From Phytophthora colocasiae (lineage: Eukaryota > Oomycota > Peronosporomycetes > Peronosporales > Peronosporaceae): 64,000 bases of DNA. The notes beneath the pieces are model-generated. The model saw only the letters and a program-made list of their open reading frames with translations. It ran no database searches and had not been told where the DNA came from. Where the stretch lies: assembly GCA_018806915.1 (NCBI GenBank), contig JAGKQI010000040.1:868001-932000 (forward strand), given 5' to 3'. Shown here piece by piece: positions 18,927 to 59,366 of the stretch. The translations under genes were made by a program, and so were the position numbers. Every line of letters begins with the position of its first letter. Positions within the stretch are counted from its first letter, which is position 1.

Positions 18927-20769
18927 TGTCGCGAAGTCGGTGCAACTTTTACCGCGGTGCAGGGGCGTACAGTGAATCTGGAAGTGTGACTACCGGTAGT
19001 GATACCAGAGTCGCACAGCAAGGTGGGCGTGTGTTACCTTGTGCTGTCCTCGTAGGTTCGTTGTCTTGGTAATGAGACCCTCGCCGGGGTCGTGAGAGTG
19101 TTGATGAGAGTGAGGGTTCCTTGCGTAGACCGTCGGATGCCCTTCTGGTCCTCACAGGAGCGCTTGAGAGTCGAACGTTTTCCGGTGAACAGTTGTGTAC
19201 ACCAGAGATTTCTGAAGTCAAAAGAGAAATTAATACAAATGGGAAGTCCTGTCACTAGACTTCCGAGATAACCGCAATATAGAGTTCCGATATACAAATA
19301 TATAGCTGCTCTTATTCTTTCCTGGCCCTTGAGCAGTGGGCTAGTTCTCCAGGTCAACTAGGGAAATATTCACCAGACACCCGGTCTGTCTGGTATTCCC
19401 GTAACTTTCGCGCACCACCCTCTAATATATAGAGGGAAAATAAACCAATACACTATCAGTTATATAACAGTCTACCGAGCGTCTTGAGAGCGACTGTCTA
19501 GCTCCCAAAACCTGTCCAAACCTACAATATGAAATGGGCTACCGCTAGAGATAAGACAAACGACCCAACTAGTAAATGGAATAGGCGGGTCCTTTCAGGT
19601 CTCTACGTTACGCTGATCTCCACCTAACGGGGCTTGATAGGTGAGAGATCACACGACTCAAAGCTTTGTTGTGGCCTTACACTTTCCAATGAACCGACGA
19701 ATCGACCTTAGGGTTATAACGCAATTTGAACTCTGGTTATCTATCTCGTATCTCTCTGTCTTCTGTCTTCCATATTCTCATATACACTTGGTCAGTATAA
19801 CTCAGGAACCTTCACTTGGGTTCACTATGGTAGGCGGTACAGCGGATCTTGTTGAGTCGACACTTAATGATGTCATTACAGGGACGTTTCACTTGATTGC
19901 GTGAAGTCGTGTTGGGTACACTTGGTTTCAGTATGGGGTGGACTTCAGAGTGTCAGAGTCTGGTATCCTGTTCGTCAGGGTCTGGAATCATGTGCGTCGG
20001 AGACATGTTCATCAGAACCATGTACTCCGGAATCATGTACATCAGAGTCATAAATACCAGAGTCGTGACACTTGGGTCTGTTCATCGGAGTCTTGTACGT
20101 CGGAGTCTGTTCATCGGAAACTGGTAAATGTCTGGAATATTGCTTGTATAAGCCGGACACATCAGACTTGTTTACCAGAATCATGTTCGTCAGACTCATG
20201 TACGTCGGACTTCATGTACGTCGGACTCATGTACGTCAGACTTCATGGTGTGATATCAGAGTTTCCATGCGTGATACCAGATATCCATGAGTGTTTTCAG
20301 GGTGCGGAGCACGTATGCTGCAACGCACGAAGTCCAGTTGGAATATGCGCGGGGCGCGCTACGTCCGGTGCGCGATACTTGTTATCTTGTGGGTAAAATT
20401 GTATTCCTTGAACCATCATCGTCACACAGGACGGCAACGGGATGAGGTCTCTCAGAGATACGTTCTTCTGAGAGACTTTCTGCCAGCCTTTAGGCACTCA
20501 TCGTCGGGGAATGTCCGGTGATCAGACTGAGTGTTGTTGTCTCTCGCAGTTTTTGCACTTTTTCGAGGAACACTTCTGATCTCTTGGGCCCCATTGCAGT
20601 ACAGGTGAAGGTTAATATATAGCAGTTTTCTTCCACAGATCCATCATATTGTCGCACGGGGCATAACCTCGTCCCACATCTCCCTTTCTCCCATAATCCA
20701 GTGTATATCCAATCACATCACAGCGTAACGTCCATATCCACTCGAAAAATCGTAATTAGCAATGTGTCA
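18927..20769 (-). repeat. Family B LTR (1,843 bp) lacking the inverted duplication
   Basis: On the minus strand it runs from TGACACATTGCTAATTACG to ...CTTCGCGACA. It is very similar to 24751-27077 but lacks about 460 bp present there. Outside its start (20770 on) the third family's RT is interrupted after ...GTGGACTGG. The last four bases, CTGG, recur beyond the far B LTR at about 59692-59695 and look like a target-site duplication. Confidence 0.88.
19955..20290. repeat. Array of degenerate family B motifs inside the LTR
   Basis: About 15 near-copies of TGTWCRYCRGA (for example TGTTCATCAGA, TGTACATCAGA, TGTACGTCGGA, TGTTCGTCAGA) plus GATATCAGAG and GGTATCC variants occur every 15-30 bp, with no fixed period. 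The closest versions follow one another at 20160-20250. The same motif occurs in B-family coding regions and spacers. Confidence 0.7.
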
Positions 20770-21935
20770 CCAGTCCACAATGGCCTTGACCTTTGCTGGA
20801 TCAGCACGTAGAGGAAATGGATTTCTTCGATTAAATTCGCACTAGTCCGCGTTGGCGTACAACTTGTTCGTGCGCATGCACTCAAACACAGCTCCCACGT
20901 GTTCCACGTGCACCTTGACGTCAATCTTGCCGTGTTCGGCCTTACTGTGGACGAACACGTCGTCAAAATTCGTCTGTGCGAATGCCCGCATGGGCCTGAA
21001 CAGTTGCGTCACTAGACGATTGAACGTGGCAGGCGCGTTGGAGTGACCTTGGGGCATTACGAGCCACTCCCAGAGCATACCGCTCGCAGTGCTCGCTCAC
21101 CGCTGTAAGCGGGATATCACTGGCTCGCATGAGCAGCTGATAGTAGCCATCGACTAAGTCGAGCGCACTATACATGGTGCAGCCCACCATGTTGTTCTGA
21201 AGAACGTCCTTCCCAGGAATCGGTGTCTGCGCCGGAATCGTGGCGGCGTTGAGCTTATTGAAAGAGTGAACGATACGCCACTTGCCATTCGGCTTTCTGA
21301 CACAGAACGTCGGTGCGGAGTGCGGAGACTTGCTCTCGCGCACGAGACCAGCCGCGTGCTTCGCACGGAAGAAGGCGTCAATGACGTCGCATTGCTATTT
21401 AGGAAGAGGCCACTGTCGGGTCACGCAGTATTTAGTTCCGGGAACTAAGTCGATCTCGTGACGAACGCCTCGGTCAGGAGGCAGGCCACTCGGTGGTTCC
21501 TTCGAGACAACGTCTCCATATTCCTTCAGCAAGGAGTAGAAGGGATCCGAGGGATTCTTGAGGATCTCCGATCCACTCCTGGCGTTCAACACCTTCTTGA
21601 CCTCGGCCAAGACGGACTCGTCAACGAGGGACGATGAGTTTAACTCCTCTTCAGGTCGAACGATGACCACCTCGGCGAATTCGCCAGCCTTCAAGGCATC
21701 GCCAAAGTCGGCGAATGACATCTCCTCTAACTCAAGGAGTTTGTCGACACTCGGCAGTCTGTCCAGCCGGACACTGCCTTCGCCACTGCCGTCCACTCCA
21801 TCGACCAGAGTGTATAGCTGTCCACAGCCCTCCTGTGCGCTGGCACTTGACGTCACGGACGACTCAGACGCAGAGCGTCTCGCACATAGGGCCTTACGAC
21901 ATCGTCGCCTAGCCGACGAACGTCCACACGACGAT
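20770..21935 (-). pseudogene. pol: Third Ty3/Gypsy family (F): pre-RT and RT, left half
   Basis: Minus strand. 21856-21395 encodes the linker after the protease (LPSVDKLLELEEMSFADFG ... YGDVVSKEPPSGLPPDRGVRHEIDLVPG), ending in a stop after QWPLPK. RT follows (FCVRKPNGKWRIVHSFNKLN; YSALDLVDGYYQ), frameshifted near 21080. It then shows MPQGHSNAPATFNRL and the catalytic NFDDVFVHSKAE. The text ends at ...VKAIVDW exactly where the B LTR starts. The continuation (NQKDLRKWLGLANYLHKY) is at 59709 on the PLUS strand, so the two halves of F now face in opposite directions. Confidence 0.88.
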
Positions 21936-22127
21936 TAAAAAAAATTATGATTAAAATATTAAAAAAAAATAAAACAATAAAAAATAAAAATTTTTTTAAA
22001 AGTTCTTTAGGAAATATTCAACTTTTTTTTATAGATAAAATTTTTATTGTTCCAACTGAAATAAAAATTTATAATAAAAATAAAATAATTTTTTTTGAAA
22101 CTTCTTTGGGTTTATTATCTTCCCTGA
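21936..22127 (+). other. Mitochondrial-like AT-rich insertion (candidate NUMT)
   Basis: About 190 bp of extremely AT-rich DNA with sharp edges in otherwise GC-rich sequence. The plus strand translates without a stop as a Lys/Ile/Phe/Asn-rich peptide. Its second half (FFIDKIFIVPTEIKIYNKN, then IIFFETSLGLLS) resembles the start of ribosomal protein L6, a gene carried by oomycete mitochondrial genomes. The L6 assignment is from memory of the fold (IP..V.I...N.I..KGPLG pattern) and is tentative; the mitochondrial base composition is seen directly. Confidence 0.55.
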
Positions 22128-22271
22128 CACTCAGTGACTGACTCGATCTACCGCCGACGTCACTAGACGGAGTACGTGCCGCCGCACAGCTTACGGCCCC
22201 TTCAGGCCCAGTGTCAGTGAAACTCTACGATCCACTCGGTCGACGACCGATGCCGCTCAGCGGAGTACGTG
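22128..22271 (-). other. Short remnant, probably of element F upstream of Pol
   Basis: GC-rich and without a usable ORF. The minus strand contains VDRRVSLTLGLKGP-like text, resembling the linker before the protease in this type of element, so F was probably continuous here before the AT-rich insert. Confidence 0.35.
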
Positions 22272-24695: not shown

Positions 24696-25043
24696 TCCAT
24701 CGTTTGTATCATGAGCCGTATTGCGAGTGGTTTTTTGGTTTTAGCGCAATTGACACGTTGCTAATTACGATTTTTCGAGTGGATATGGACGTTACGCTGT
24801 GATGTGATTGGATATACACTGGATTATGGGAGAAAGGGAGATGTGGGACGAGGTTATGCCCCGTGCGACAATATGATGGATCTGTGGAAGAAAACTGCTA
24901 TATATTAACCTTCACCTGTACTGCAATGGGGCCCAAGAGATCAGAAGTGTTCCTCGAAAAAGTGCAAAAACTGCGAGAGACAACAACACTCAGTCTGATC
25001 ACCGGACATTCCCCGACGATGAGTGCCTAATGACTGGCAGAAA

Positions 25044-25073
25044 GTCTCTCAGAAGAATGTATCTCTGAGAGAC
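25044..25073 (+). promoter_or_regulatory. Conserved LTR inverted repeat
   Basis: GTCTCTCAGA, a 10-base loop, then TCTGAGAGAC: a perfect 10-bp stem. It is present at the same place (about 270-300 bp from the LTR start) in every A and B LTR here, although the surrounding sequence differs between families. It is probably a protein-binding palindrome or an RNA hairpin. The role is inferred. Confidence 0.5.
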
Positions 25074-25253
25074 CTCATCCCGTTGCCGTCCTGTGTGACG
25101 ATGATGGTTCAAGGAATACAATTTTACCCACAAGATAACAAGTATCGCGCACCGGACGTAGCGCGCCCCGCGCATATTCCAACTGGACTTCGTGCGTTGC
25201 AGCATACGTGCTCCGCACCCTGAAAACACTCATGGATATCTGGTATCACGCAT

Positions 25254-26132
25254 GGAAACTCTGATATCACACCATGAAGTCTGACGTACATGAGTCCGAC
25301 GTACATAAAGTCCGACGTACATGAAGTCCGACGTACATGAGTCTGATGAACATGATTCTGGTAAACAAGTCTGATGTGTCCTGCTTATACAAGCAATATT
25401 CCAGACATTTTCCAGTTTCCGATGAACAGACTCCGACGTACAAGACTCCGATGAACAGACCCAAGTGTCACGACTCTGGTATTACGACTCTGATGTACAT
25501 GATTCCGGAGTACATGGTTCCGATGAACATGTCTCCGACGCACATGATTCCAGACCCAGATGAACAGGATACCAGACTCTGACACTCTGAATTCCACCAC
25601 CATACTGAAACCAAGTGTACCCAACACGACCTCACGCAATCAAGTGAAACGCAACCTGCTCATCCCTGTAATGACATCATTAAGTGTCGACTCGACAAGA
25701 TCTGCAGCATCGACTACCATAGTGAGCATAAGTGAAAGTTCCTGAGTTATACTGAGACCAAGTGTATATGAGAATATGGAAGACAGAAGACAGAGAGATA
25801 CGAGATAGATAACCAGAGTTCAATTTGACAGCTTCAGTATGGGGTGGACTTCAGAGTGTCAGAGTCTGGTATCCTGTTCGTCAGGGTCTGGAATCATGAA
25901 AGTGCGTCGGAGACATGTCTTATCGGAACCATGCACTCCGGAATCATGTACATCAGAGTCGTAATACCAGAGTCGTGACACTTGGGTCTAATCATCGGAG
26001 TCTTTGTACGTCGGAGTCTGTTCATCGGAAACTGGCAATGTCTGAATATTGCTTGTATAAAGCTGGACACATCAATTATCACTGGTGTTACCAGAATCAT
26101 GTTCGTCAGTCATGGTGTGATATCAGAGTTTC
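25254..26132. repeat. Inverted duplication within the element E LTR
   Basis: About 25254-25606 and 25832-26132 are reverse complements of each other with minor differences, around a 225-bp spacer. Both arms consist of the motif array (TGTACATGA, TGTTCATCGGA and related). The extra arm is followed by about 145 bp of unrelated sequence (26133-26276). The whole extra block is bounded by AGTTCAATTT on both sides (about 25826 and 26271). The same block is in the 3' LTR (41060-41500) but absent from 18927-20769. Confidence 0.7.
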
Positions 26133-26569
26133 TAACAATTAGCATACCGGCGCTTGCGCCTCACATTAGCTTGCGGTATACGCCAACCAGGTCATAAGTC
26201 ACAAATATGTGTAAGATACATAGTGTTTCTCACACGTCACATATGTAGCCAGTTGCTGGCAGTTAGCAGTTAGTTCAATTTTGCGTTACAACCCTAAGGT
26301 CGATTCGTCGGTTCATTGGAAAGTGTAAGGCCACAACAAAGCTTTGAGTCGTGTGATCTCTCACCTATCAAGCCCCGTTAGGTGGAGATCAGCGTAACGT
26401 AGAGACCTGAAAGGACCCGCCTATTCCATTTACTAGTTGGGTCGTTTGTCTTATCTCTAGCGGTAGCCCATTTCATATTGTAGGTTTGGACAGGTTTTGG
26501 GAGCTAGACAGTCGCTCTCAAGACGCTCGGTAGACTGTTATATAACTGATAGTGTATTGGTTTATTTTC

Positions 26570-26588
26570 CCTCTATATATTAGAGGGT
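26570..26588 (+). promoter_or_regulatory. Palindromic TATA-like element in LTR
   Basis: CCCTCTATATATTAGAGGG: a 7-bp inverted repeat enclosing TATATA. It is the best core-promoter candidate in the LTR. Family A has the related CCCTCTATACTAGAGGG. The palindromic shape would suit a promoter active in both directions. No transcription start can be read from the sequence. Confidence 0.4.
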
Positions 26589-27079
26589 GGTGCGCGAAAG
26601 TTACGGGAATACCAGACAGACCGGGTGTCTGGTGAATATTTCCCTAGTTGACCTGGAGAACTAGCCCACTGCTCAAGGGCCAGGAAAGAATAAGAGCAGC
26701 TATATATTTGTATATCGGAACTCTATATTGCGGTTATCTCGGAAGTCTAGTGACAGGACTTTCCATTTGTATTAATTTCTCTTTTGACTTCAGAAATCTC
26801 TGGTGTACACAACTGTTCACCGGAAAACGTTCGACTCTCAAGCGCTCCTGTGAGGACCAGAAGGGCATCCGACGGTCTACGCAAGGAACCCTCACTCTCA
26901 CAAGACTCCCACGACCCCGGCGAGGGTCTCATTACCAAGACAACGAACCTACGAGGACAGCACAAGGTAACACACGCCCACCTTGCTGTGCGACTCTGGT
27001 ATCACTACCGGTAGTCACACTTCCAGATTCACTGTACGCCCCTGCACCGCGGTAAAAGTTGCACCGACTTCGCGACAAC

Positions 27080-27169: not shown

Positions 27170-30100
27170 ATGGCTTCACATGGAACTACGAGAGGAGGAC
27201 GTCAGGGACGCGGTGGTCGCAGTATGGCGACACGTCAGTCGAAGCGTCTTCAAGGTCTTCCGCCTGACGAACAACCCGACTTGGATGCTGCTCAGAAGGC
27301 GACACGCGAGAGGAGGAAGGTTGCACGTGAAAAGGAAGCAGTAGAGGAGGTGAACGTCCCGGAACAGGCGGTCGAAGACCAGCCTGCTGCGGACCCTGAA
27401 GCCCAAGAGACACCCGATGTGTCTGGCGAACAAGGTTCTGAGGAAGGTCCGTCCGAAGCTGAAGCTTCTGGTGACGAGGTGGCCACTGACCGTGAGGGTG
27501 GTGATGAGGCGTCTGAGGGAGGCGCCGACGTGGTTGAGTCCCCGGAGATCATTGACTTGTGTTCTGAGTCGACGGCTTCTGGGAAGTCCGTGGGAGAAGT
27601 GAAGACGGAACCCGGACTGGTTGATGAACGTGTCTCGAAGACTCCAAAGTCCGAAGACACTCCTGTCTGATGACATGCCGATGAAGTCCGAAGATTCTCT
27701 GAAGACACCGTCTGATGAGTCTGGGAGGGCTGATTCGCTGGATGGAGAACGTGCTCTGAAGTATGTACGCCGTGAGTTCCGCCGCTGGAGGGACATGGAC
27801 GCTGGAAGAATTGTTCCGCCGAACGTCGAATACGCCTGGCAAACATCGAAGCCTGACGCAAATGTGTTTCAGAAGGCTGCGGCAGCGACGGGCGACTACA
27901 TCAAGTGGCGGTGTTCTTCAGTATTTCCAGAAGACATGTGGATATCGGAATTCCGCTTGAGGCGCCATAGTTTTGGCCGAGTCCAAGACTTGTCGTACGT
28001 CGAGATCTCGATGAATACTCTGACGGCACCCGAGTGCGTCGCTGTCCTTCAGACGATGCTGTATGAAGCAGGATTTGAGTTCCAGAACCTGCTACCGAGG
28101 TGGTCTCAGACCCAAGCGTCTGTTATCTTTGAACCTCAAGTGCGCAGTGTGTCGACGGAGCTTCAGAGCCGTCTTGCTGAAGAACTGGTTGAGTGGACCA
28201 CTGTGACCGCCAGGTCACAAGTTAATCGACTCCCAGAAGACACAAAGGCGGACAACGAAGCACGTCGAGGCGAAGCTGATGGTATATTACGCGATGTGAA
28301 TGCTGACCTACAAGGACGACAGCTGATTATGAGACTCCGGGTGACCGGACTCAGAGTCTCACATAGTTCTGTCGGGTCCAGCAGTGGAGAACCGCCGCAG
28401 TCCAAGCGCCTGCAACATGGTCCACCACGGCCACAAGTCTCGTCGATACCATCTGCACTGTCGACGCCGTCGCTAAGTTCGCTGCCGGTATACGAGAGTC
28501 ACTCTGATAGCACTCATTTGGAGTCTGGTGTTCCAATGTCGGAAGATCGAGGTAGCTCTCTGATGACTGATGCGCCTGTGCCAAGTGTCATTGGGACCTC
28601 GCGTAAGTCGGAGCCCGATGACTTCGAGATGTTGGAAGAGAAGCCGGAGTTTCCAGAAGTGAAGTCCGAGAGACAGTTGTCTACCAGAGATTCTGTTCAC
28701 CGGACGCCAGAAGCTCCATCATCGTCCGTCTCGAGTCGAGGTAGAAGCCACCAGAGCAGGCATGAGAGTCTGAAGAGCGAAGATCGCCAGAAAGTGTCTT
28801 CCAGACGCTTGAGTTCCGTTGCGTCAAGCCACACACGAAGTTCCCAGATATCAGGCCCAGCGCAGATCGAATTGAACGCTATGCGGCAGCAACAGGAATG
28901 GCAGCGTCGAATGGAACAGGAGCAGAAGGAATTTCTGGCCAGAGAACGTCTGGAATCCATGGAGCGTGAACGTCGACGTGAACAACGGAAACTTGATACG
29001 CGCCAGCAGATCCAGACCCTCACCGACCGACTACTTGAGTCTGAAGCGCCAGGCTGGAAGCCAGAGACGCGTGGATGACTTGGAAGAACGTCGGAGTCAA
29101 GCGTCAGAGTCCAAGCTCAGTACCATTCGAAATCGTCTGAGAGACAGGTGTCCGACGAACAAGTTTCTGGTGAACAGTTTTCCGACAGACAGCGTCTGGA
29201 GACCGAGTTTGCAGAACGCTGGAAACAACAGGAAGCCGAGGCCGAAGCCGAACGTGCGCGCTGGGCAGACGAGCTGAAACGTGACTGGATTTCGCAAATG
29301 GAGACCTTACGACAGCGGGTGCACGACGTGGAATCGGAGCGCGACAGGGAGCGGGAAAGTTCCAGAACATGCAGCGTTTCCATGCCGCAGAATTGAGGAA
29401 TCTTCGTGCAACATTGTCCCAAGCTCAAGGGGTCGCCTACCCTGAAGTAGCAACTTCAAGTCGGATCTCCGGTGAACATGACCCTAAACCGGCAACCGGA
29501 CCTCTGGTGAACAGTCGGGATACGGGAGATTGCACACCTGGGGTTAGGGGATCAGACGGAGTCGCCAGTAGGGGTAGGGTTACCCATTAAAACGACGGAG
29601 GCCTTCCATACGCCTCTTCTCCTACGGAGAACGACCGACACCAAGCGCGCGAAGGCTGGAAGGCATGGCGCGGACACCGCGGCCGCTACGACGACCCAGA
29701 CGGCTCAAGCGGCTCCCCTGACCGAGGTCAAGACCGAAGGAAGGCGCCCAGCGACTCCCAGGCGCGATGGACACTGGAAACCCAGTGAAAGACGGTCGAG
29801 ACGCTTCGCGAAAGCCCGGGAGATGCAGGAACACCCCAGACCCTGGTGGAAGCTCCAGTGACTCAAGCTCGGACTCCGGGAACTCGTCGTCTGATGACCT
29901 GGACCCTCCGGAGGGCGTTAACCTGACTACGTCTCACGGACAAGCTGGAACGACCCTGTTGACTATGAGGCCCTTCACAAACTCAAGTATCATCGGAGAA
30001 TTTGATCCCCGAGCGACATTACGAGAACGGGTTCACTGGTGGGAGCGCTTTGTGAACATGGCATCTCAGGGAGCATGGACGAACAAGACCCGCATTCAAG

Positions 30101-42512: not shown

Positions 42513-43084
42513 CGAAGATTCAAGACCATACTGAAACCAAGTGAACCCAAGTTCAAGTCACGCATTCAAGTGATTACTGACCTGCACATCCCCCGTAATG
42601 ACGTCTCTACCTGTCAACCCATCGAGATCGGCTGCACAGATTGCATACTGAGATCAAGTCAAGATATCTTATACATACAAGAGCCAAGTATACCTGACAC
42701 ATGAAGACTGACTGCTGAAAGGACGCAAAAGATGACAAGAAGAAGAGAGATACCAGAAAGATATGATAGTTATGAGGAAGATAAACGATAAACAGAGTTC
42801 AATTTGCTTGCTACTGCACAAGTCCGCTTGAGAGGTATCCAAGCCACTGCGTCATCACGTACGTCGTGTGATCTCCACCAAATTCAATCCCCTTAGGTGG
42901 AGATCAGGTAACGTAGAGACCTGAAAGGACCCGCCTATTCCATATCCTAGTTGGGTCGTTTGTTTTGTCTCTAGCGGTAGCCCATTTCATATTGCTCGTT
43001 TGGACAGGCTCTGGAAACTAGACAGTCGTTTTCAGAGTGCAAGGTAGACTGTTATATATAGCCGATTGTATTGGTTTATATTTT

Positions 43085-43101
43085 CCCTCTATACTAGAGG
43101 G
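43085..43101 (+). promoter_or_regulatory. Palindromic TATA-like element
   Basis: CCCTCTATACTAGAGGG, at the position corresponding to 26570-26588 of the B LTR. Core-promoter candidate by position and conservation only. Confidence 0.4.
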
Positions 43102-43645
43102 TGGTGCGCGAACGTAAAGGGATACCAGACAGACCAGGTGTCTGGTAGCAAGTCCCTAGTTTACTTGGAGTGTTAGCCCACCGTTCAAGGGCCGAGAAAG
43201 AATAAGAACGGCTGTATACATTTGTATATTTTCGAACTCTGTGTATTGGTTGTTTACCTCTGAAAGTCAGGTATCTCGGTTCCGGATTTGTGATATTCAG
43301 ACACCGATTTCAGACTTTCTCTGGTATATTAACCTCTTTTCGACCGCCGACTCCCTGGAAACCATCTTGGTTCCCAGAGATTCCGACTCCCAAACGCTCC
43401 TGGAAGGATTTCCTGAATACCGACACCAGACTCCAAGGGAACCCCAACTTCTCTTCACAAAACATTCTCAGACTCCGGCGAGGGTCATATTTCCGAAGAC
43501 AACGAACCCACGAGGATACCGCAAGGTACCACACGCCAACCTACCGTTGTACGGCTCTGAAAACCCCTTTTCAGTAGTCGTATAACTAGGGCTCACTATA
43601 CGCCCCCCTGCTCCGCGACCAAAGTTTCACCGACTTCGCGACAAC

Positions 43646-49282: not shown

Positions 49283-49576
49283 GGTGTCGTCGACGCCGTT
49301 GTCGTCCTTGGCATAGCCGTAGCACTGGCAACAGACACCGTGGGAGCCGGCGATGTCGGCGTCGTTCATGTCAACGTTGAAGATGTCGATGCTAACGCCG
49401 GTCGCAGCATCCTGAATGCGACGCACGTAGAATCGGTCCTCCAGGGCCCATCGGTCGTCGTTGGGACTCGTGTAGTCTGCCTGGTACCGGAACTTGTTCT
49501 CCAGTCCCTGTAGCATCTCCGCCGTGGTGTTGCACTCGACGAGTTTGTCGCCGACGTTGCAGACGGCGACGACGTC
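49283..49576 (-). pseudogene. Captured gene fragment resembling a tartrate-resistant-type acid phosphatase
   Basis: About 98 codons on the minus strand, in frame with the protease that follows, and absent from the family B copies at this position (they have SSDFPRDCSPDVPKDNESPPDD). The text includes LENKFRYQADYTSPNDDRW, EDRFYVRRI, VSIDIFNVDMNDADIAG and CCQCYGYAKDDNG. This resembles the segment of calcineurin-like purple/tartrate-resistant acid phosphatases after the GNHD motif (Y....RW..P..FY ... VD); the CCQC insertion is unlike animal enzymes. It is GC-rich with third-position C/G bias, unlike the element. The metal-ligand motifs are not included, so it is not an active enzyme. The family assignment is from memory and unverified. 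Confidence 0.5.
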
Positions 49577-51589
49577 TTTAACTCAAAACCTGAGAGTCTC
49601 TTAGGTGATCCTCAGACTCCTGAGTTACCCGCGGATGATTTCGACTTAATGGATGAGTCTTGGGATATCCCCATTCGAGGGATGCCTGGAACACCTGTGG
49701 AAAAATTACGAGTGGAATACGAGCGGTGCATGAACGTTTCGAATGAAGAGTTGGACCTGGAGCCGGGTGTGTATATGCGAGAAGGCACGGAACTCCTCGC
49801 TCAATTACGTGACCAACTGGTCATGTTGCCTGAGCTGGAAGAATTGACACCAGAGTGTGATATCGACAACGCTGATGTTGGAGAACCAGGAAAGACGACC
49901 CCAGAAATGGAGAAGAAACTGCGTGATATTCTGAGGCACCACAGGAAAATATTCCTGGGAGATGGCAATGCAGCGCCCGCACCGGCAAGGGGCGTGGTCT
50001 GTGATCTGGATGTGGGAGATGCAAAACCGATAGCCCAACGTCCGAGATCTGTCGCTCCTCATCTCATGCTGAAGGTGTACGAGCTTCTAAAGAAACTCCT
50101 GGAAACTGGTTTGATCGAGTACTCCAACTCGCCATGGGCATCTCCCATCGTGATCGTTCTAAAGAAGAATGGTGTTGACATACGAATGTGCATCGACTAC
50201 CGTATTGTGAATGGCTATATTCAATTATCACGTTACCCTCTGCCTCTTATTGACGACCTTCTAATCGGTTTTGAGGCTGCTATGTGGTTCATGAGCCTAG
50301 ATATGGCTAGTGGTTTTTGGGCAATCAGAATGACGAAGCGTGCACGATTGATATCAGCTTTCGTTTGTCCGTTTGGACACTTTCAGTGGGTGAGAATGCC
50401 GTTCGGTCTGAAAAACGCCCCTCTGGTGTATCAAGCTATGTTGGATAATTGCCTGTGGGGTTTCGTGAGACTGTCACCAGAAGAAGAAGCTGAAGTTGAT
50501 GCGGAGGTTCTGGAATTTCTGCAACTCCAGCCTCAGGACTCTGAAAAGCATCTTTCAGACTCTGAGAACCATACTCCGATTTCAGAGATGCCAACACTCA
50601 CAAGTCAGATGACCGTCTTTCAGAGGAATATTCCCGTCCCCACATGCATGGGCCCAGTCCTGGGGAGGAGTTCATACATCGACGACATCGCACATGGAGC
50701 ACCGACTTGGGACCAATTATGTGACGATTTGAACGCCCTGCTTTTCAGACTTCGCTATTGGAACATTTCTGTGAGTTTGCCCAAGAGCGAGTTCGGGAAG
50801 TTGTCGATACCGTACCTATCCCACGAGATCAGTGCCGAGGGTCTGAGGGCAACGCCCAAGATCGTCAAAGGAGTTGAAGGGCTGCCCTTTCCGTCTACGC
50901 TGAAGGGAGTTCAGAGTTTCATGGGAAGCCTCAATTATTACAACAAGTTTATTGAGGATTTACCGGTGATTGCTGCTACCCTCTATGAGCTGACGGACGA
51001 GCAGATTCGTGCTGGACGAGACCTGACTCGTGCGAAAGAGGCGTTCGAGATTCTGAAACGCAAGATAGTCTCTACTCCACTACTCAGACATCCAGACCGA
51101 ACCAGACCGTTTGTTGTCATTCCGCATGCGAACCCTTGGGCTGCTTCAGCAGTCTTGGGACAAGAATATGAAGGAATAATACACCCAGTCCGGTTCACGG
51201 GTCGTGTCCTGAACGATGCCGAACTCAGGTATCATATCGCTGAGAAGGAGGTGATTGCGATCCTCAGAGTTTTGGAAAACTTTAGAGCTCTGGTGGAGTC
51301 AAGTCCGGTGATTGTGGTCTATACCAGATACTCTGTCCTGAAATGGTTGCTGACATCGAACTCCACCGACGGCAGAAACGTCAAGTGGGGTCTGAAGTTG
51401 TCGCAGTGGAACTTGGAGATCCGCCGGGTTCAGCGTGATGAAGATGGACTCCCAGCTATACTCGGTGCGGGCATCACCCCCAGGGAGCATCTGGACGAAG
51501 TCTCTGAAAATCTGATCCCAGTCAAGGGGCGAGTCAAGCCGCCAGTTCCTATCAGTGTGGAAATACTGGAAGCAGATTATCAGGGTTAA
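49577..51589 (+). pseudogene. pol: Pol N-terminal part, family A: RT and degenerate RNase H
   Basis: Open from about 49577; the first Met is at 49649 (MDESWDIPIRGMPG), but the true N-terminus is upstream in the inverted block. RT spans about 50030-50980: VLKKNGVDIRMCIDYR, SLDMASGFWAIRMT, MPFGLKNAPLVYQAML, catalytic SSYIDDIAHGA (YIDD, not YVDD/YLDD). About 70 residues are inserted between the last two, including SEKHLSDSENHTP. The Ty3-type RNase H (51090-51440) retains EKEV but has IPHANPWA for the usual D-A-S, YTRYS for YTDH, and no final Asp, so it is probably structural only. TAA at 51587-51589 replaces the Cys seen in both B copies. Confidence 0.9.
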
Positions 51590-53929
51590 GTTCTGAGTTT
51601 TGATGGTGCCGCAAAGACGTCTACCCGTCTGGGAAGCTGTGGGTGTATACTCTGGGAACTCCCGGGTTGGAGCGTTCTGGAAGCCCGAGGGTTTCCCCTG
51701 ACGGATGTCACGGTGAATGACTCGGAATACTGTGGCCTGAATTATGGTCTGAAGATGGCACTCGACCACGGAATACAGGAGTTGGTGGTTGTGGGAGATT
51801 CGCGCATCGCGATACAACAGGCTCAGGGACTAATCAACTGCAATCAGCCCAACTTGCAACGGAGGTTGGCCGAATTTGAGTCTCTGAAAACCAAGTTTCG
51901 GACTCTGAAGTTGGTGCATGTGAAGCGCGAGCTTAACCAAGCGGCGGATTACCTGACCTCGAAGACTTTGACCCTTGGGGAAGATTGGCAGGTGCGAGAC
52001 GAGGATGAACTTATGCACCTGCAATTGGTATCCAAAGTTCATGAGAAACTGATGAAGCCTTGTTCAACCCCGGACCTGGAAGTTCAAGAGTCAAAAATAC
52101 CAGACTCTGAAAATCATAATGCGTCACCAGAGTCTGAGAATGTTTTTGATCCGGAATCCGCACCCCTACCTCGATCGGTCAGAATATTGATTGCTGTAAC
52201 CCGTGCCCAAGCTCCACCTGACGCTAATCTGCCTGAGGATGATGACGACCGAGAACCTTTGGGGCCTTTAGAGTTCCAGGCAGAACGCTGGCGACGGATC
52301 AAGGCGCATCAGAGCCAGGACCCGTACTTGGTTGAACTCATGAAGTTTCTGAAAGGTGACGTGGGAGATTTACCACGACCCCGAGTCAGGAAGCTTGCCA
52401 GAGTTGCTGAGGACTTCGTTCTGGATTCTAGAGATGTACTGTATCGCCTGAGTCGCGCTACTCGAGAACGGCCCCGGGACAATGTTGACGAACTCAGACT
52501 GGTGGTTCCCAGAGACTTGTATCCAGACCTGTTACACTATGCTCATGAAGACTACCAAGGTGGACATCAAGGAATCAGGAGAACCTTTGAGAAGCTGAGT
52601 TCGGAGTTTTACTGGTTGGGTATGTATGCCGATGTGGAGAGATTTGTGAAGGAATGCGTAGACTGTGCCAGTGGCAAGGGGCGACCCCCAAATCCTGGAC
52701 CGTCCCCTGGAAATATTGAGCCCAGCCGGCCATTTGAAGTGGTGTCTATGGATTTTGTGACCCACATGCCGAAATCAGCACGTGGAAACACATTTCTCTT
52801 GCTGTTCCAGGATATGTTTTCAGGATACGTGATGTGCAAGCCAATGAGTGTCACCACTGCTCAGGATGTAGCAGAGGCTTATGAGGAACGCGTTTTCAGA
52901 AACTTTGGTGCTAGCTCTCTGATTCGTCATGATCAAGATCCTCGCTTTATGAGTGAGGTGTTCAAGTGTTTCAGGGAACTTTTGGGTAGCAGACAACGAG
53001 CTACTCTAGGGTACCGGCCTCAAGCCAACGGCCAGCAAGAGAGATCAGTACAGACTGTGGTGCGCGCGATTAAGGCATATATCTCTGAAGCTGATCAAAG
53101 TGACTGGGATGATCACGCCGAACGTCTGATGTTTGCCCTGAATACGTCATTCGATGCCACCCGTCTGGAAACGCCTTTCTACCTGGTACATGGTTGGGAT
53201 GCTCACGGGACGGTGTCCGCTATGCTTGGACCCAAGCCATCGACGACTCAGGAGCGAACTGCGTACGAATGGAGACGGAAGATGCAACGAGACTATAGCT
53301 ATGCTCTGGCATGTGCCGAAGATCTCCAGAAGAAGGCAAAGCGTGACCGGTCTGAAGAACAGACCAGAAAGTGGAACGAGTTATCAGAGCGTCTGAAGTC
53401 AGGTTTCGCTATAGGCGACGCCGTATGGCTCTACATCCCTAAGGTGCAAACGGGATTGAGCAGAAAACTAGCACACATGTGGCACGGACCCTTCAGGATC
53501 GAGGAGATGCTGGACGATTTCAGAGTACGACTCAAGGTTGAAGATACCGGCTACCGCGTGAACCCCTGGGTGCATGTGAGCTGTCTGAAGCCAAGGGCTC
53601 TATTCCCCAGACGACCCACTGTGGAACTCCAGATTCCAGAAGATGATGATTTTGACGCCGCCCTGTTACCAGAAGATAGTTGGGAACCTGATACTGAAAA
53701 CGACGAGTATGAAGTGGAGAAGATTCTGAATACCCGCTGGAACAAGCGTACCAGGACGTCCAGACGCCTGCGCGAATATCTGATTAAGTGGAAAGGTTAC
53801 GATGAAACTGAGTGGTTACCGTTATCGAAGTTGAACTGTGGAGCATTACTTTACGAATTCAACCAGAGTGCACGAGCACGAGCCCGTTTTCAGGCGATGC
53901 AGGCTGGAGACGATCACCCCAGAGTCTAA
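51590..53929 (+). CDS. pol: Pol C-terminal part, family A: second RNase H, integrase, chromodomain
   Basis: Open from the stop at 51589 to TAA 53929, with no internal break. Second RNase H (51596-51965): SFDGAAK, NDSEYCGL, VVGDSRIAIQQ, LNQAADYL, with all four acidic positions present. A linker follows with PDSENHNASPESEN. Integrase: zinc site HYAHEDYQGGHQG ... ECVDCASGKG; DDE core at SMDFVTHMPKSARG, IRHDQDPRFMS and QANGQQERS; then HMWHGPFRIEEML, a GPY/F-like module. The chromodomain is at about 53705-53850 (YEVEKILNTRW ... LREYLIKWKGYDETEWLP), expected to bind histone marks and steer integration. This is the best-preserved enzyme segment in the window. Confidence 0.92.
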   Translation, partial: VLSFDGAAKTSTRLGSCGCILWELPGWSVLEARGFPLTDVTVNDSEYCGLNYGLKMALDHGIQELVVVGDSRIAIQQAQGLINCNQPNLQRRLAEFESLKTKFRTLKLVHVKRELNQAADYLTSKTLTLGEDWQVRDEDELMHLQLVSKVHEKLMKPCSTPDLEVQESKIPDSENHNASPESENVFDPESAPLPRSVRILIAVTRAQAPPDANLPEDDDDREPLGPLEFQAERWRRIKAHQSQDPYLVELMKFLKGDVGDLPRPRVRKLARVAEDFVLDSRDVLYRLSRATRERPRDNVDELRLVVPRDLYPDLLHYAHEDYQGGHQGIRRTFEKLSSEFYWLGMYADVERFVKECVDCASGKGRPPNPGPSPGNIEPSRPFEVVSMDFVTHMPKSARGNTFLLLFQDMFSGYVMCKPMSVTTAQDVAEAYEERVFRNFGASSLIRHDQDPRFMSEVFKCFRELLGSRQRATLGYRPQANGQQERSVQTVVRAIKAYISEADQSDWDDHAERLMFALNTSFDATRLETPFYLVHGWDAHGTVSAMLGPKPSTTQERTAYEWRRKMQRDYSYALACAEDLQKKAKRDRSEEQTRKWNELSERLKSGFAIGDAVWLYIPKVQTGLSRKLAHMWHGPFRIEEMLDDFRVRLKVEDTGYRVNPWVHVSCLKPRALFPRRPTVELQIPEDDDFDAALLPEDSWEPDTENDEYEVEKILNTRWNKRTRTSRRLREYLIKWKGYDETEWLPLSKLNCGALLYEFNQSARARARFQAMQAGDDHPRV

Positions 53930-54313
53930 TAACTCTGAAAACACATCTGGAAGTCTGATATCTGAAGGATTTCAGACATTGACTTTTAGAGTGTGGTAGT
54001 CTGAGTGCGTGTTTTCAGAGACCTATTTCTGAAATTCGTGCGTTTGGATATGTGATCGACCATGTTACTACTTATATAAAACGACTGTGTGAATGTGAAT
54101 ATGGAAGTGAGTTTGTGGAGAATTAAGTGCTAGAGGATACGAGGTTATGAACAATGAGATGATGAGAAGAAGTGTGATTACGTGGAATGATATTGAAAGA
54201 TTAAGAGATTAGGAAGCTACAATGAGGCCAGGGGTTTACGTCACAAATGCAGACAACTATTTGGCTTCTCGAAAATGCAGCCTTCCCGTGGGCACCATGG
54301 TGGACACCTGAGT
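53930..54313. other. Tail-to-tail spacer rich in family A motifs
   Basis: No ORF. 53930-54035 holds CTCTGAAAACACA, TCTGATATCTGA, GTGTTTTCAGAGA and TTTCTGAAAT within about 100 bp. The rest is A/G-rich. It is expected to contain the polyadenylation regions of both converging genes. Confidence 0.65.
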
Positions 54314-57300
54314 TCAGTAGTGAAGGGAGATCGGGTTCTCGGAACGCTCCGTAGGTGTCATATGATCCTTCTTGATGTCAGCGGGGACGTACTGGAGCCA
54401 CTCTTCGTCCACATTCACCGTGGCTCATTGCATCCGAGCAGGCTCAATAGCGTCCAAGTCACCCAGTTGCGTCTCCAGACTCAGACACTTGGGACCCCCG
54501 AGCTCCGCGACTCTGGGATCTTGCCAGATCCAAGGGCAGGACTTGTCTGGGACAACCCAGATTCCAGGCTCTGAAAGCAACGACTCTGGGAAATCTTTGT
54601 TCCCCAGGACCTTTCGGATGAGGGCGTTGTGCTGACGAATCATGGCGGCTCGACGCATGGACCGGTACTTGTGAAGCTCCGCAGACTTGTCGTCAGCCTC
54701 AACATCCATGGTCACCCAATGCGTACGCTCCCAGAAGGCTTGAGCATGCTTCTTCATGCTGCGCACGATGTCTTCCACGTCAGCCAACACCATGGGCCCC
54801 AGTTCCTCCCGCTTGTGGAAGTAAAACTCTGAGAATCGGTTGTCGAACATGACTTTCCCAGGGGCGCGCTTCTTGCGGAGGACTGCACAGTACCGCTCAG
54901 AGTCCCAGCGCTTCTTGAGGATGGCACATGAGTGTTTGTGCACCTCGTAGTCTGGGAAACCCAATGTCTGGCCAGTGGTGGACTTGGTAGAGCTCACTCG
55001 TTGTACCCTGATACCATAGTACAACCAGGAGGATGCCTCACAGTCTGGTGTTTCCACCACCTGGAGCTCCTTGACCGTCAGGGAGTTGTAGGGCTTGGAC
55101 ACCAGACTACGCGCTTTCCCAGAAGAACTTTTGGACTTCGATCCACTTCCACTGGTGGACTTCGGGCGAGACTTGGGACTGGTATGGGCCTTTACGGATG
55201 CGATACTTTTCTTGGACTTCTTGGTGGGGATGATAGGTCCATCATCAGAGTCTGAGTCGTCATCAGAGTCCCGGGGACGCTTGGAACCAGGACGCGGGTG
55301 GTCATCGGACTTCTTGCTCCCGGACTTCTTGCCCCCAGAGTTCTTGTTCCTAGACTTCTTGTCTTCAGACTTCTTGTCTTCAGACTTGTCGCTCTCGGAA
55401 TCGCTGTCGACAGACGCACCATCACCAGAGCTCTCGTCGTCATCTTCATCTCCAGACTCGATCACACCAGAATCCTTGTAATCCGGATCATCCTTGGGGT
55501 TGTCGGCGGTGGACTCGACATCACTTTCTGGATAATTTACGTGACCATCCAGATCACCCCAGGCTGCAGGCTCGGTACCAGCTGAGATGTGACGATCCAC
55601 CACCTCGTCGGCCATCTGGTAATACACTTCGGGGACGTACTTGGCCCAGAGAGTGGAATCCAGGTGACGAGAGAATACCAGGCTCACCAACATCTGAATG
55701 AGAACCGGACTGCTGAAGAGACTGTGAGCCGCTTTGTCCGACGCTAACCACTCCATGGCTTTATCATACTTGATCCCAGATAGCAGGGCTTGGCGGAGGT
55801 CGGGTCGAACTTCCTTCTAGACCACGTCACCAGGGAGCCTCTTGTGGACCTCAGACTTTGCCACCTTAGAATCTGCATTCGCCGGAAGCGCCGAGTCTTC
55901 AACGGGCTTGTGTCCGGACAGGCGACGCTGCAAATTCTTGGAGTCCCACTTGAACGGCCGCTTCGGAGATGATTTCAGAGTCTGGGGCTTCGGTGGATAT
56001 GACAGGTACCGTGGGCTCTCGCTCTTGGACTCTGAGGTTTCAGCACTTGGACGAGTAAGATCCAGAACTCTGGTGGTCTTCGCAGCCTTCTCAGCAGCCC
56101 GACGAGCTCGTTCTTCAGAAAGCCGTTTCTTGAAATCAGGAACAGGCTTCTTCTGTGCGTCCAAAGCTGTCACACTGATGACAGTCGTCCAGTTATCAGG
56201 AACGATAGTATTCTCCTGAAACGACACCAGAAGGTCATGGAGCCGATCCCAATTACCGGAGATTTCAGAGTTCTCTTGTAAGAACTCTGAGAATCCCCAT
56301 GGATCTGTGGGTTTGACTTCAAGACGCGATTTCAGAATCGAGACCTGCGCTTGAAGATCAGCGACTTGGGATTTCAGAGCAGCCTTGTCCGACTTCAGAG
56401 CTTCCACTTGGTCCTGGTAGTGAGCCTTGAGATCCTGAATCTCCGAAGTCATGCGTTCTTCTACCACACCGGCGTCTTGCTGGGCACACTTAAGCTCGTG
56501 TTTCCAGTATTGACAGTGCAGTACCCACTCACGCTTGATTTCTTCGCATTCAGAGCGCGCTGCTGCAGCATCAATCAAGGCGACACCGTTCTGAGAACCA
56601 ACACGTTCCCGAAGGCGACGGTGAGCAGCAGTCATAAGTTTTAGGCATCCGGCCGTCCGAAAGACTTTTTCGGCAAGCCGAGTGGGGGAGACGTGAGAAA
56701 CCAGAGACCCCAGTTCCCGGCGAACATCCACAGACGACGTCAAAGCATCCAGAGTGCGCACGTCTGGAGTCTGGGCGCACGGAGACACGACTTCGTCAGG
56801 ATCGAAGCTTGGGATCACCCGCTCCAGCTCCCGGAAGTCTTCATCAGTGAGTGCCTCGTAACCCACGAGTACACAGGGGCCACCATACGCGTTCGCTATG
56901 TGACGCCCTCTTCTGAAATCTTCAGCCCGTTCAGGAGTACTCACCAGAAAGGCACGTCCCTCTGGTTTGACGATGGGAGCAATATAATTCTGGGGAACAT
57001 CAGAGTCCCCCAACGCCGTGACTTGGTCTCCTGTGGACGTCACCAGACCCTGACGAAACAGCCGATCGACCTCTTCCGTGGACAAGAGCCGTGGGGCGCC
57101 GAAAGCTCGCGGTCTGAAAACGCCAGGAGTTCCCTCAGGAGAATTCAGAACTGGAACCTCCATGTGAAACAGCCGTTGGCGAAAGATCACCGGAGCCAAC
57201 CGAGTCAATAGTGCCACCGGGGGGATTCTCACCCAGATCATCGACTTGTGAATGCTTAGGCTCGGACGCACGGGCTGGGGCGCTAGAGCTGCCACCTGGC

Positions 57301-57620
57301 GATGTGGCTGAACCAACATCTCCACCCTGCACCACACTGGCAGTTGCCGAAGCAGGACAGGTGCCTGTGGCGTCGCCTGCCACCCCACTCGCTGAGGCGT
57401 TCGAGCTCAGGGAAGTGTTCGTTTCCTCAGTCATGAGCGAAAGGACGGAGTTTTGAAAATGATCGCCTGTTAGGCAAGTCAAATTCAAGTTTCTGAGTCT
57501 GAGAGAATCAGATTGTGCGACGGGACACCAGAGACTCTGAAAACCAGGCAACTGGCAAAGAGTTGCAGCTACGCTACGCTCTGAAAACCGTCTATCAGAA
57601 TGTTTGATAGGCCTGGCCAT
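54314..57620 (-). pseudogene. Antisense-ORF protein, family A (about 1,100 codons), best copy
   Basis: Starts at 57620 (MARPIKHSDRRFSERSV), 40 bp inside the polypurine tract. Frame 1 runs to 57135; frame 2, entered near 57150 and open to 55817, continues it. TAG at 55817-55819 replaces the Trp of the B copy; the next part is open to 54425, where TGA replaces another Trp; homology ends at 54314. Content: a conserved N-terminal block; a Ser/Gly/Ala linker; NAYGGPCVLVGYE with FRELERVIPSF; a helical region and coiled coil (KSDKAALKSQVADLQAQV); VPDFKKRLSEERARRAAEK; an acidic Asp/Ser/Glu tract and Lys-Ser repeats with GSKRPRD and PTKKSKK, likely nuclear localisation signals; and a folded C-terminal domain (SSWLYYGIRVQR ... 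WERTHWVTM ... CPWIWQDPRVAE). No family is recognised. The promoter must lie antisense in the 3' LTR. Confidence 0.8.
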
Positions 57621-57659
57621 GATACACAGCTTGGAGAAAGTTCCGCACTGATGGATCGT

Positions 57660-57675
57660 GACCAGGAGGGGCGGT
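57660..57675 (+). other. Polypurine tract
   Basis: GACCAGGAGGGGCGGT next to the 3' LTR. Confidence 0.9.
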
Positions 57676-59366
57676 TGACATGATGTTAATTCCGATTTTC
57701 GAGCGACAGGTGGATATTACGTTACGATGTGATTGGTTATACTATGGGTTATAAGCGAAAGGGACTTTGGGACGCGGCCGCACCCGTGCGACATCTGTGG
57801 AAGATTGTGGATAAACCTTCGCCTGACTGTAAAGGGGCCCAAAGGACCAGAAGTGTACTTCAGAGTGTGCACAACTCTGAAGATTAACTACACTCTGTCT
57901 GGTCACCGGACTTTCCCCGACGATGAGTGCCTAAGTTCTGGCGGAAAGTCTCTCAGAAGAACGTATCTCTGAGAGACCTCATCCCGTTACCGTCCAGCGC
58001 GACGATGGATGGTTCAAGGATTCACAATATATACCCGCAGAAACCAAGTATCGCGCGCCGGACGCCGCGCACCCGCGCAACTCTCAAGATCTTCGTGTAC
58101 GTTGTAGCATTGGTGCTCCGTACTCTGGTTTCTTATTCAAAACTCTGATATCTCTAACTCTGAGTGACCAAGACTCTGAAAACCAAGTGATATCAGACTC
58201 TGAAAACCAGGATACCAGACTCTGAAACCACCGAAGATTCAAGACCATACTGAAACCAAGCGAACCCAAGTTCAAGTCACGCATTCAAGTGATTACTGAC
58301 CTGCACATCCCCCGTAATGACGTCTCTACCTGTCAACCCATCGAGATCGGCTGCACAGATTGCATACTGAGATCAAGTCAAGATATCTTATACATACAAG
58401 AGCCAAGTATACCTGAGATATGAAGACTGACTGCTGAAAGGACGCAAAGATGACAAGAAGAAGAGAGATACCAGAGATATATGATAGTTATGAGGAAGAT
58501 AAACGATAAACAGAGTTCAATTTGCCTTGCTACTGCACAAGTCGCTTGTAGAGGTATCTGCAAGCCACTGCGTCATCACGTAGTTGCCGTGTGATCTCCA
58601 CCAAATTCAATCCCCTTAGGTGGAGATCAGGTAACGTAGAGACCTGAAAGGACCCGCCTATTCCATATCCTAGTTGGGTCGTTTGTTTTGTCTCTAGCGG
58701 TAGCCCATTTCATATTGCTCGTTTGGACAGGCTCTGGAAACTAGACAGTCGTTTTCAGAGTGCAAGGTAGACTGTTATATATAGCCGATTGTATTGGTTT
58801 ATATTTTCCCTCTATACTAGAGGGTGGTGCGCGAACGTAAAGGGATACCAGACAGACCAGGTGTCTGGTAGCAAGTCCCTAGTTGACCTGGAGTGTTAGC
58901 CCACCGTTCAAGGGCCTAGAAAGAATAAGAACGGCTGTATATATTTGTATATTTTCGAACTCTGTGTATTGGTTGTTTACCTCTGAAAGTCAGGTATCTC
59001 GGTTCCGGATTTGTGATATTCAGGCACCGATTTCAGACTTTCTCTGGTATATTAACCTCTTTTCGACCGCCGACTCCCTGGAAACCATCTTGGTTCCCAG
59101 AGATTCCGACTCCCAAACGCTCCTGGAAGGATTTCCTGAATACCGACACCAGACTCCAAGGGAACCCCAACTTCTCTTCACAAAACATTCTCAGACTCCG
59201 GCGAGGGTCATATTTCTGAAGACAACGAACCCACGAGGATACCGCAAGGTACCACACGCCAACCTACCGTTGTACGGCTCTGAAAACCCCTTTTCAGTAG
59301 TCGTATAACTAGGGCTCACTATACGCCCCCCTGCTCCGCGACCAAAGTTTTACCGACTTCGCGACA
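57676..59366 (+). repeat. 3' LTR, family A (1,691 bp)
   Basis: Pairs with 41957-43643 at roughly 98-99% by eye. It carries the same palindromes and motif cluster. In antisense it is the presumed promoter of the gene starting at 57620. Confidence 0.93.

Follow-up and report, generated by a model that had tools for sequence, protein, structure and literature searches.

Two related retrotransposon families in one stretch of a Phytophthora genome carry different short DNA words in their LTRs, spacers and genes, which raises the question of whether each family marks its own DNA and, if so, what reads the mark. The locus (henceforth the window, i.e., the whole 64,000-nucleotide stretch analysed) contains families A and B, which by their sequence features are sister families of Chronos-like LTR retrotransposons of ~17 kb. 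The A copy lies in plus orientation between a 5′ LTR at 41957..43643 (+; ends TGACATG...GCGACA) and a 3′ LTR at 57676..59366 (+), the former being 98.5% identical to 57671-59366. It sits in a B LTR (junction between 41956 and 59367) and interrupts the B 3′ LTR region at 39208..41956 (+), while the same B copy, running to ~41956, also supplies an LTR part at 24750..26735 (+). A pol (49514..53929, +) encodes reverse transcriptase, RNase H, a second RNase H (RVT_3), integrase and a chromodomain. Specifically, Pfam matches identified the dual RNase H (RT_RNaseH 7.2e-21, RVT_3 1.8e-17), which B pol also has, and a chromodomain near the integrase at the pol 3′ end (1.1e-07 at 1068-1120 of an A pol part, and 1.7e-07 in the window copy; the chromodomain scan covered A). 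Chronos elements, described as Ty3/gypsy elements of Peronosporales and Pythiales, are alike in their dual RNase H and C-terminal chromodomain (PMC5348765); they differ in that 'antisense' is absent from the main text of that paper, the available text of which mentions no private motif. An accessory gene, our candidate motif reader, runs antisense at 54425..57406 (−), the window copy consisting of two open pieces (54425-55816 and 55817-57406). Open pieces at the same place and strand in B span 37344..39222 (−; 37344-37817, 37576-38193 and 38611-39222, the last being the sole one used as a query). No Rfam match was found within the window at gathering thresholds.

The private motif of A is TGGTTTTCAGAGT and that of B is TGTWCRYCRGA, and the two share a frame with a switched centre (TG-GTTT-TCAGAGT in A, TG-TWCR-YCRGA in B). 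Counted over the whole genome, inside and outside elements together, the exact A word occurs 730 times vs. 5 for the reversed word, and the exact B word 7036 times vs. 511. Within the window there are 54 matches to the A word with at most 2 mismatches and 80 exact matches to the B pattern, vs. 2.2 and 0.59, respectively, in dinucleotide shuffles. Nor are the two motif types equally frequent in the two families: in the copies examined, exact TTTTCAGAG was found 18 times in A and twice in B, and exact B words 53 times in B and never in A. Both families hold closely spaced arrays of their own motif in the non-coding DNA of the LTR, further sites in the spacer, and, across gag, pol and the antisense gene, sites that stand alone or form small groups. 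Site density per kb is 3.7 (A) and 10.3 (B) in LTRs and 7.7 in either spacer, vs. 1.3-1.8 (A) and 3.9-4.4 (B) in genes. Close pairs are mostly 15-16 bp apart in B (23/39) and 21-25 bp apart in A (6/8), and are inverted in 8/39 and 0/8 cases, respectively.

The initial annotation had called the A LTR packed with the word at 42398-42512; the word is there, as three minus-strand sites including two exact 13-mers (42454, 42478 and 42500, in 42454..42512 and 22-24 bp apart), and 'packed' amounts to three per array, with matching sites at 58173, 58197 and 58219 in the 3′ LTR. Its placement of the B word at 19955..20290 (+) was borne out by 13 B-type sites with at most one mismatch, in an inverted neighbouring copy. 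Further B arrays lie at 25280-25544 (−) and 25875-26110 (+) in the LTR part, and at 39742-40011 (−) and 41104-41328 (+) in the interrupted region. Both spacers carry their family's word as claimed: in A, the region 53930-54035, between pol and the antisense gene, has two sites (53932..54024; 53932 on −, 54012 on +), and in B an inverted pair occupies 35908..35933 (one mismatch each), within 35905-35935. Within genes, an A pair in gag (45934..45968, −) has B motifs at the homologous place in the copies compared (29151..29176 of B gag, −), and further A motifs lie in the C-terminal part of gag (47382..47403, −). An A pair in pol (50538..50571, −; in the same codons of the B copies compared, TGTTCATCAGA / TGTACGTCGGA) is homologous to three B motifs 21 bp apart (32489..32541, −). 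The A pol motifs at 51881..52116 (−) divide: site 52104 is a B motif in B, where three motifs in both orientations lie at 34051..34089, and site 51881 stays an A-type word. As for the LTDEQ/LSGEQ codons, said earlier to create the B motif, they are present as described, but since A has no A motif there, they show a B site that no A site matches, and not a swap.

The chance controls proposed in the initial annotation were run. We took words from the LTR arrays and counted them in coding DNA against shuffles that fix protein and codon usage. LTR-derived A words occurred 12 times in A coding DNA (2.15 expected) and LTR-derived B words, with at most one mismatch, 37 times in B coding DNA (7.3 expected), and none of 300 shuffles reached either count. 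Synonymous-codon shuffles scored for the motifs themselves gave a similar picture, with 24 exact B sites vs. 2.2 expected (highest of 500: 8) and 8 occurrences of TTTTCAGAG in A vs. 0.75 expected (highest of 500: 4). Unguided ranking of 7-mers placed the motif core on top in both families, i.e., TTCAGAG in A (29 vs. 6.0 expected, z 9.4) and CACCAGA in B (26 vs. 4.7 expected, z 9.8), both above the best word of 100 shuffles (6.5 and 8.3, respectively); in the 8-mer ranking the top B word did not exceed the best shuffle (8.2 vs. 9.3). Chance and codon effects are thus ruled out by the synonymous shuffles, LTR-derived words included. Family separation is strong, yet not absolute: the wider B pattern is in excess in A coding DNA (10 vs. 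4.0 expected; 1/500 shuffles), as are TTTTCAGAG (2 vs. 0.13; 4/500) and TTTTCAGAGT with at most one mismatch (4 vs. 1.1; 15/500) in B coding DNA, which may in part be due to the YCRGA core common to both motifs. The earlier proposal that the kind of motif follows the family in the DNA itself is supported for LTRs, spacers and, beyond codon-matched chance, coding DNA.

The same controls bear on a reading with no DNA-level function, in which repeated acidic peptides (SGEH, SDEQ, DSENH) under protein constraint, or local duplication, leave the words behind as a by-product. Frame sharing is indeed common (11/17 B gag sites lie in a single frame and strand), several sites are in weakly conserved stretches, and some pairs are spaced 15, 18 or 21 bp apart. 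Against this, shuffles that keep the peptides yield counts 5-11 fold too low, LTRs and spacer are full of the same words, and the flanks of the sites differ, so that this reading is already disfavoured and, in our view, scarcely credible. Copying of a longer repeat is also disfavoured: flanks are only weakly alike, and with so slight a bias in the bases beside the word the sites do not resemble duplicates of some larger unit. Coding sites occupy several reading frames and both strands. That each family carries a real tag at the DNA level is, in our judgement, highly likely.

To see whether the words are a generic feature of gypsy elements, related elements were compared. Five other gypsy loci of this genome (possibly fewer than five independent families, since L047 and L048 have enriched words in common and may be related) contained, per 9 kb, 0-1 near-matches to the A word and 1-2 to the B word; their pol genes had no private 7-mer, and there the LTR-derived words were at chance level (A 0, B 3). 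A generic gypsy feature is ruled out on these loci. At a threshold of 0.001, RVT_3 was matched in 0/5 of them, and a chromodomain was found in 1/5, meaning that they belong to other gypsy groups; a Chronos family lacking the antisense gene, which would be a better control, was not found.

We then asked how the words differ between the sister families at homologous positions. Among the 17 alignable sites of 19 A coding sites, 6 lie within 3 bp of a B site on the same strand, where 0.21 would be expected (0/2000 draws), compared with 13/241 other CAGA words of A (Fisher P 0.0005). In the reverse direction, 6/48 B sites face an A site vs. 5/340 other CRGA words (P 0.0008). The remaining 11/17 A sites are not switched, including 5/5 in the antisense gene. 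Conservation tests were mixed. Across 29 A copies, sites in the antisense ORF had 4.0% mismatches vs. 4.2% in the rest, i.e., no extra conservation, and LTR sites were more variable (10.2% vs. 2.9%); only relative to one older copy were coding sites better kept (8.3 vs. 20.6%; 6 sites, P 0.022) and LTR sites were not (10.0 vs. 9.3%). Several coding sites fall in weakly conserved stretches.

Orientation of the sites is uneven. A sites favour the element-antisense strand by 20:7 (P 0.019), which a symmetric DNA-binding model does not predict. In B, 29/41 gag-pol sites lie on the element-antisense strand and 13/16 sites of the antisense-gene region on the opposite one, and B coding strands therefore mostly carry the complement. 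Such bias would suit a signal acting in the transcript, where the word or its complement in sense and antisense RNAs could serve Gag packaging, nuclear export or RNA stability. However, the bias within the antisense gene is opposite in A (5/6 sites on the coding strand), both orientations are present, and B has inverted pairs; a splice-acceptor version of this reading, based on the TTTTCAG in TTTTCAGAG, is ruled out because the B word at switched places lacks TTTTCAG. We consider an RNA-level signal quite improbable.

The probable reader of the tag is a DNA-binding protein encoded by the element. The foremost candidate is the antisense protein (~1,120-1,140 aa, with its gene placed between pol and the 3′ LTR in both families; 1118 aa in several B copies), although we rate its chance of being the reader as slightly below even. 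A genome search with the A antisense gene returned at least 84 matches (82 of 657 candidates scored), and among the 84 matches listed, 18 lay in open reading frames 1,100+ aa long and had no stop within the match. The protein is under purifying selection, with third codon positions ~4 times more variable than first and second positions (28 copies). Identity between A and B is 53% for the antisense protein, 74-75% for gag and 82-88% for pol, with dN of 0.41, 0.16 and 0.08-0.12, respectively; on these sequence comparisons it is the fastest-diverging product of the element, and its co-divergence with the motif is a single contrast, as two families were available. These values also speak to self-targeting, in which the motif would guide the integrase, or a chromodomain partner, so that new insertions land in copies of the same family. 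The elements here are nested, which would favour it, but the A copy lies in a B LTR and not in its own family, and pol, integrase included, is best conserved despite the different motif; we hold self-targeting to be very unlikely. Antisense proteins of both families contain a basic stretch of the KRPR...KKSKR type, a putative nuclear signal. A third family in this genome was sought with a P. capsici antisense protein (44% to A) as query. There were at least 113 matches (47 of 1049 candidates were scored), with ~44-51% identity in the longer ones, and among the matches listed none stood out as clearly closer to this query than A and B are.

No Pfam family matched the antisense protein above cut-off, so it has no recognised DNA-binding domain; nor was there a PDB relative (best E 0.068), and its AlphaFold model was unusable (pLDDT 40.6). 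A candidate without a recognisable DNA-binding domain, together with the higher motif density of the non-coding parts, would fit an enhancer model in which the motifs bind host transcription factors recruited by each family, with coding sites as extra enhancers and no element-encoded reader. That explanation would nonetheless require a switch of host factor carried site by site through the coding DNA of sister families, and the five other gypsy loci have not recruited the motifs. We regard it as unlikely, though the strongest of the alternatives.

A protein reader recalls the VANDAL/VANC system of Arabidopsis, the analogy drawn in the initial annotation. The likeness lies in short motifs that are private to a family, differ from those of its sister family and stand in close arrays, and in a fast-diverging accessory protein, proposed here from sequence as the reader (PMC5735166, PMC10398659). 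The analogy stops short in three respects. VANDAL is a MULE-type DNA transposon, whereas A and B have LTRs, reverse transcriptase and integrase; VANC21 sites are described as non-coding (PMC5735166), whereas here coding DNA also has more of the words than expected, and gag, pol and the antisense gene all contain them; and VANC removes 5mC, which according to the available text of PMC6211444 was detected neither in P. infestans nor in P. sojae. Antisense extra ORFs between pol and the 3′ LTR (aORF-3R) are described in the plant elements Grande, RIRE2 and Retand, with function unknown and a nuclear protein in Grande; position and orientation match the gene studied here, and the available part of PMC7264820 mentions no family-private motif. 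Abstract openings in the literature found hold no report of such motifs in oomycete retrotransposons.

On balance, we assign a probability of about 50% to family-specific recognition of DNA, probably by an element protein, in a system that follows VANC-like logic without being a VANC. Each family has a private word, repeated many times in its own DNA, that would serve as an address and be bound by an element-encoded protein, the best candidate being the antisense product. By coating copies of its own family along their length, from one LTR to the other, the reader would leave them open to transcription despite host silencing. It would be a transactivator and anti-silencer specific to self, with sister family and host untouched; this activating or anti-silencing effect we rate as less likely than not. 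When reader specificity changed, sites would be replaced singly, partly at the same codons. DNA uptake sequences of Neisseriaceae are likewise short self-identity words, found inside and outside coding DNA; relatives use different dialects, and there is a cognate reader. They are an analogy only, belonging to a bacterial transformation system. In its fullest form, which we put forward as a possibility somewhat against the odds, a retrotransposon would write a family identity code in its own coding DNA, an antisense-encoded nuclear protein and the DNA dialect would co-evolve, each sister family within one nucleus would cover and activate its own copies only, and a change of dialect would become fixed one site at a time across gag, pol, spacer and LTR.

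If true, sequence-specific self-recognition by selfish DNA would no longer be known from just one plant DNA-transposon group but would have arisen in stramenopile LTR retrotransposons too, and protein-coding DNA could harbour a recognition code, paid for in amino-acid changes. Antisense genes of gypsy elements, so far enigmatic, would gain a concrete and testable role, and the two families would offer a natural protein and motif pair with switched specificity. LTR retrotransposons would then distinguish self from non-self, here in a genus with 5mC undetected in two species.

Nested LTR retrotransposons make up the window, which corresponds to 868001-932000 of contig 105 in the genome analysed. 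The family A copy (41957-59366, with LTRs of ~1.69 kb and TG...CA ends) is inserted within the 3' LTR of a copy of its sister family B whose start lies near 24750: at the junction 41956|59367 the B LTR continues at ~59367, beyond the A copy, and the GGTT present on both sides of the latter is likely a 4-bp target duplication. The pol domains (reverse transcriptase, gypsy RNase H, a second RNase H (RVT_3), integrase and a chromodomain) form a set which, through its second RNase H and chromodomain, is a hallmark of the oomycete group Chronos (PMC5348765). An antisense gene occupies the region between pol and the 3' LTR; it is split into two pieces in the window A copy and encodes 1118 aa in B copies. 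Of the 84 antisense-gene matches listed genome-wide, 18 are free of stops and lie in an open frame of at least 1,100 aa.

Several rearrangements accompany this architecture. In the A copy (48155-49292) as well as the B copy (30593-32119), a protease segment of 1.1-1.5 kb that contains the retropepsin region runs in the opposite direction to the remainder of the element, and in A the protease domain (Asp_protease_2, 3.8e-15) is encoded on the minus strand; in two other copies, L040 and the B copy L041, it is in sense orientation. Because the breakpoints differ between the A and B copies, these inversions look like two separate events. A reverse-orientation element (3531-20769) has a 3' part of family A (3531-10513) and a 5' part of family B (10514-20769), arranged as by recombination between the families. 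Both window B LTRs carry a second, inverted motif array (25833-26114; 41062-41332), and a stretch matching it is present once in the LTR of L041. On another contig (G000:C34:276208-366301), a segment of 75 residues from the B antisense ORF is matched repeatedly along ~90 kb of a single strand, with a step of ~3.56 kb or multiples among the matches listed; the pattern resembles a tandem, satellite-like array built from part of the element.

A family-specific tag at the DNA level is well supported. Aligned in one frame, the two words (TG-GTTT-TCAGAGT in A, TG-TWCR-YCRGA in B) have common ends and a different centre. The window contains 54 matches to the A word TGGTTTTCAGAGT with up to 2 mismatches (2.2 expected) and 80 exact matches to the B pattern TGTWCRYCRGA (0.59 expected). 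Exact totals over the 92.5-Mb genome, element and non-element DNA together, were 730 for the A word and 7036 for the B pattern, the reversed words giving 5 and 511, respectively. An A copy, examined as two halves, had 34 A sites (at most one mismatch of TTTTCAGAGT) and 14 B sites with at most one mismatch, with no exact B word; an older A-like stretch, 82% identical to A at the DNA level, had 11 A sites and likewise no exact B word. A B copy had 94 B sites (53 exact) against 5 A sites, and a second B stretch had 44 B sites, 21 of them exact. Near-matches in five other 9-kb gypsy loci of the same genome (L045-L049) numbered 0-1 for A and 1-2 for B, and none of the 7-mers in their pol genes exceeded the best of 60 shuffles. 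None of the five matched RVT_3 at 0.001 and one had a chromodomain, so that on domain content they class as gypsy groups other than the A/B type; two of them look related to one another.

The excess extends to coding DNA when synonymous codons are shuffled, keeping protein and codon usage constant. Exact sites in B coding DNA numbered 24 against 2.2 expected (maximum in 500 shuffles, 8), and TTTTCAGAG in A coding DNA 8 against 0.75 (maximum in 500 shuffles, 4). Slight excesses were also found across families, for the wider B pattern in A (10 vs. 4.0; 1/500 shuffles) and for TTTTCAGAG in B (2 vs. 0.13; 4/500). In a second codon test the words were taken from the LTR arrays by visual inspection, which lowers the risk of choosing them from the DNA tested. 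The A word thus obtained occurred 12 times in A coding DNA (2.15 expected), and the B word in B coding DNA 6 times exactly (0.55 expected) and 37 times with one mismatch (7.3 expected), counts reached by 0/300 shuffles. This B word was at chance in A coding DNA (5 vs. 3.1; 47/300), the A word was slightly raised in B (3 vs. 0.67; 11/300), and both were at chance level in the pol genes of the five other gypsy loci. An unguided 7-mer ranking placed the motif core at the top in A (9.4 vs. 6.5 for the best of 100 shuffles) and in B (9.8 vs. 8.3); the 8-mer ranking gave 10.5 in A, above the best shuffle (9.2), and 8.2 in B, below it (9.3).

Some sites differ in type at the same place. A protein-guided alignment of the A and B genes could place 17 of 19 A coding sites, six of which faced a B site on the same strand at a distance of no more than 3 bp (expected 0.21; 0/2000 random draws). 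Since YCRGA is common to both words, other CAGA words of A served as control, and 13 of 241 lay opposite a B site (Fisher P 0.0005 against motif sites). In the reverse direction, 6 of 48 B sites faced an A site; among other CRGA words the figure was 5 of 340 (P 0.0008). Examples are found in gag (A GGATTTTCAGACT vs. B GGTACACCAGACT) and pol (A TGGTTCTCAGAGT vs. B TGTTCATCAGAGT). The other 11 alignable A sites are unswitched, including all 5 in the antisense gene. The initial annotation had pointed to matching codons reading LTDEQ in A and LSGEQ in B; the codons are correct, but the B site there is without an A counterpart. Synonymous divergence between the families is near or past saturation (dS 1.2-2.9, with one of the four estimates undefined), so that equivalent words at matching positions are unlikely to have simply been retained.

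Positions flanking the word were compared over 29 A and 90 B sites: none has a base at more than ~55%, and a longer copied unit therefore does not appear to be the source of the sites. Close pairs are mostly spaced by 15-16 bp in B (23/39) and 21-25 bp in A (6/8), and duplication may have enlarged the LTR arrays. Other results speak against a protein-read tag. Among 29 A copies, motif sites were no better kept than the rest in the antisense gene (mismatches 4.0% vs. 4.2%) and worse kept in the LTR (10.2% vs. 2.9%); only in the older copy were gene motif sites better kept (8.3% vs. 20.6%; 6 sites, P 0.022), its LTR sites being no better kept than the rest. Strand use is biased, with 20/27 sites in A, 29/41 in B gag-pol and 16/18 in the B LTR on the element-antisense strand and 13/16 in the B antisense-gene region on the opposite strand; close pairs are inverted in 8/39 cases in B and 0/8 in A. 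Given these patterns the motif could act at the RNA level, though strand use in the antisense gene differs between the families.

For a tag in DNA, a reader encoded by the element itself is the simplest account, and the best candidate for this putative reader is the antisense protein. It is the most diverged A/B product (53% identity, dN 0.41; gag 74-75%, dN 0.16; pol 82-88%, dN 0.08-0.12), as a reader with altered specificity should look, the two families amounting to a single contrast. Across 28 A copies, variation is 7.7% at third codon positions vs. 1.8-1.9% at first and second positions (~4-fold), so purifying selection acts on the encoded protein. The protein has acidic low-complexity stretches and a basic KRPR...KKSKR stretch; domain and structural-relative searches recognised no domain in it, and its structure model, too poor for interpretation, predicts with low confidence a long helix (residues 282-367 of the modelled sequence, P0003). 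The 10 database relatives reported, from scoring the 8000 candidates with most words in common, are all from Phytophthora (citrophthora, palmivora, capsici), which makes a Phytophthora host very probable. Antisense proteins from these three species are 43-80% identical to that of A.

The tag system resembles in outline the VANC system of Arabidopsis, the analogy drawn by the initial annotation, although the A/B elements are not VANDALs and their sites in coding DNA are a real difference. By this analogy with VANC (PMC5735166, PMC10398659), the antisense protein would have an anti-silencing role. In neither P. infestans nor P. sojae was 5mC detected (PMC6211444), so what is countered would have to lie in histone marks, 6mA or small RNAs.
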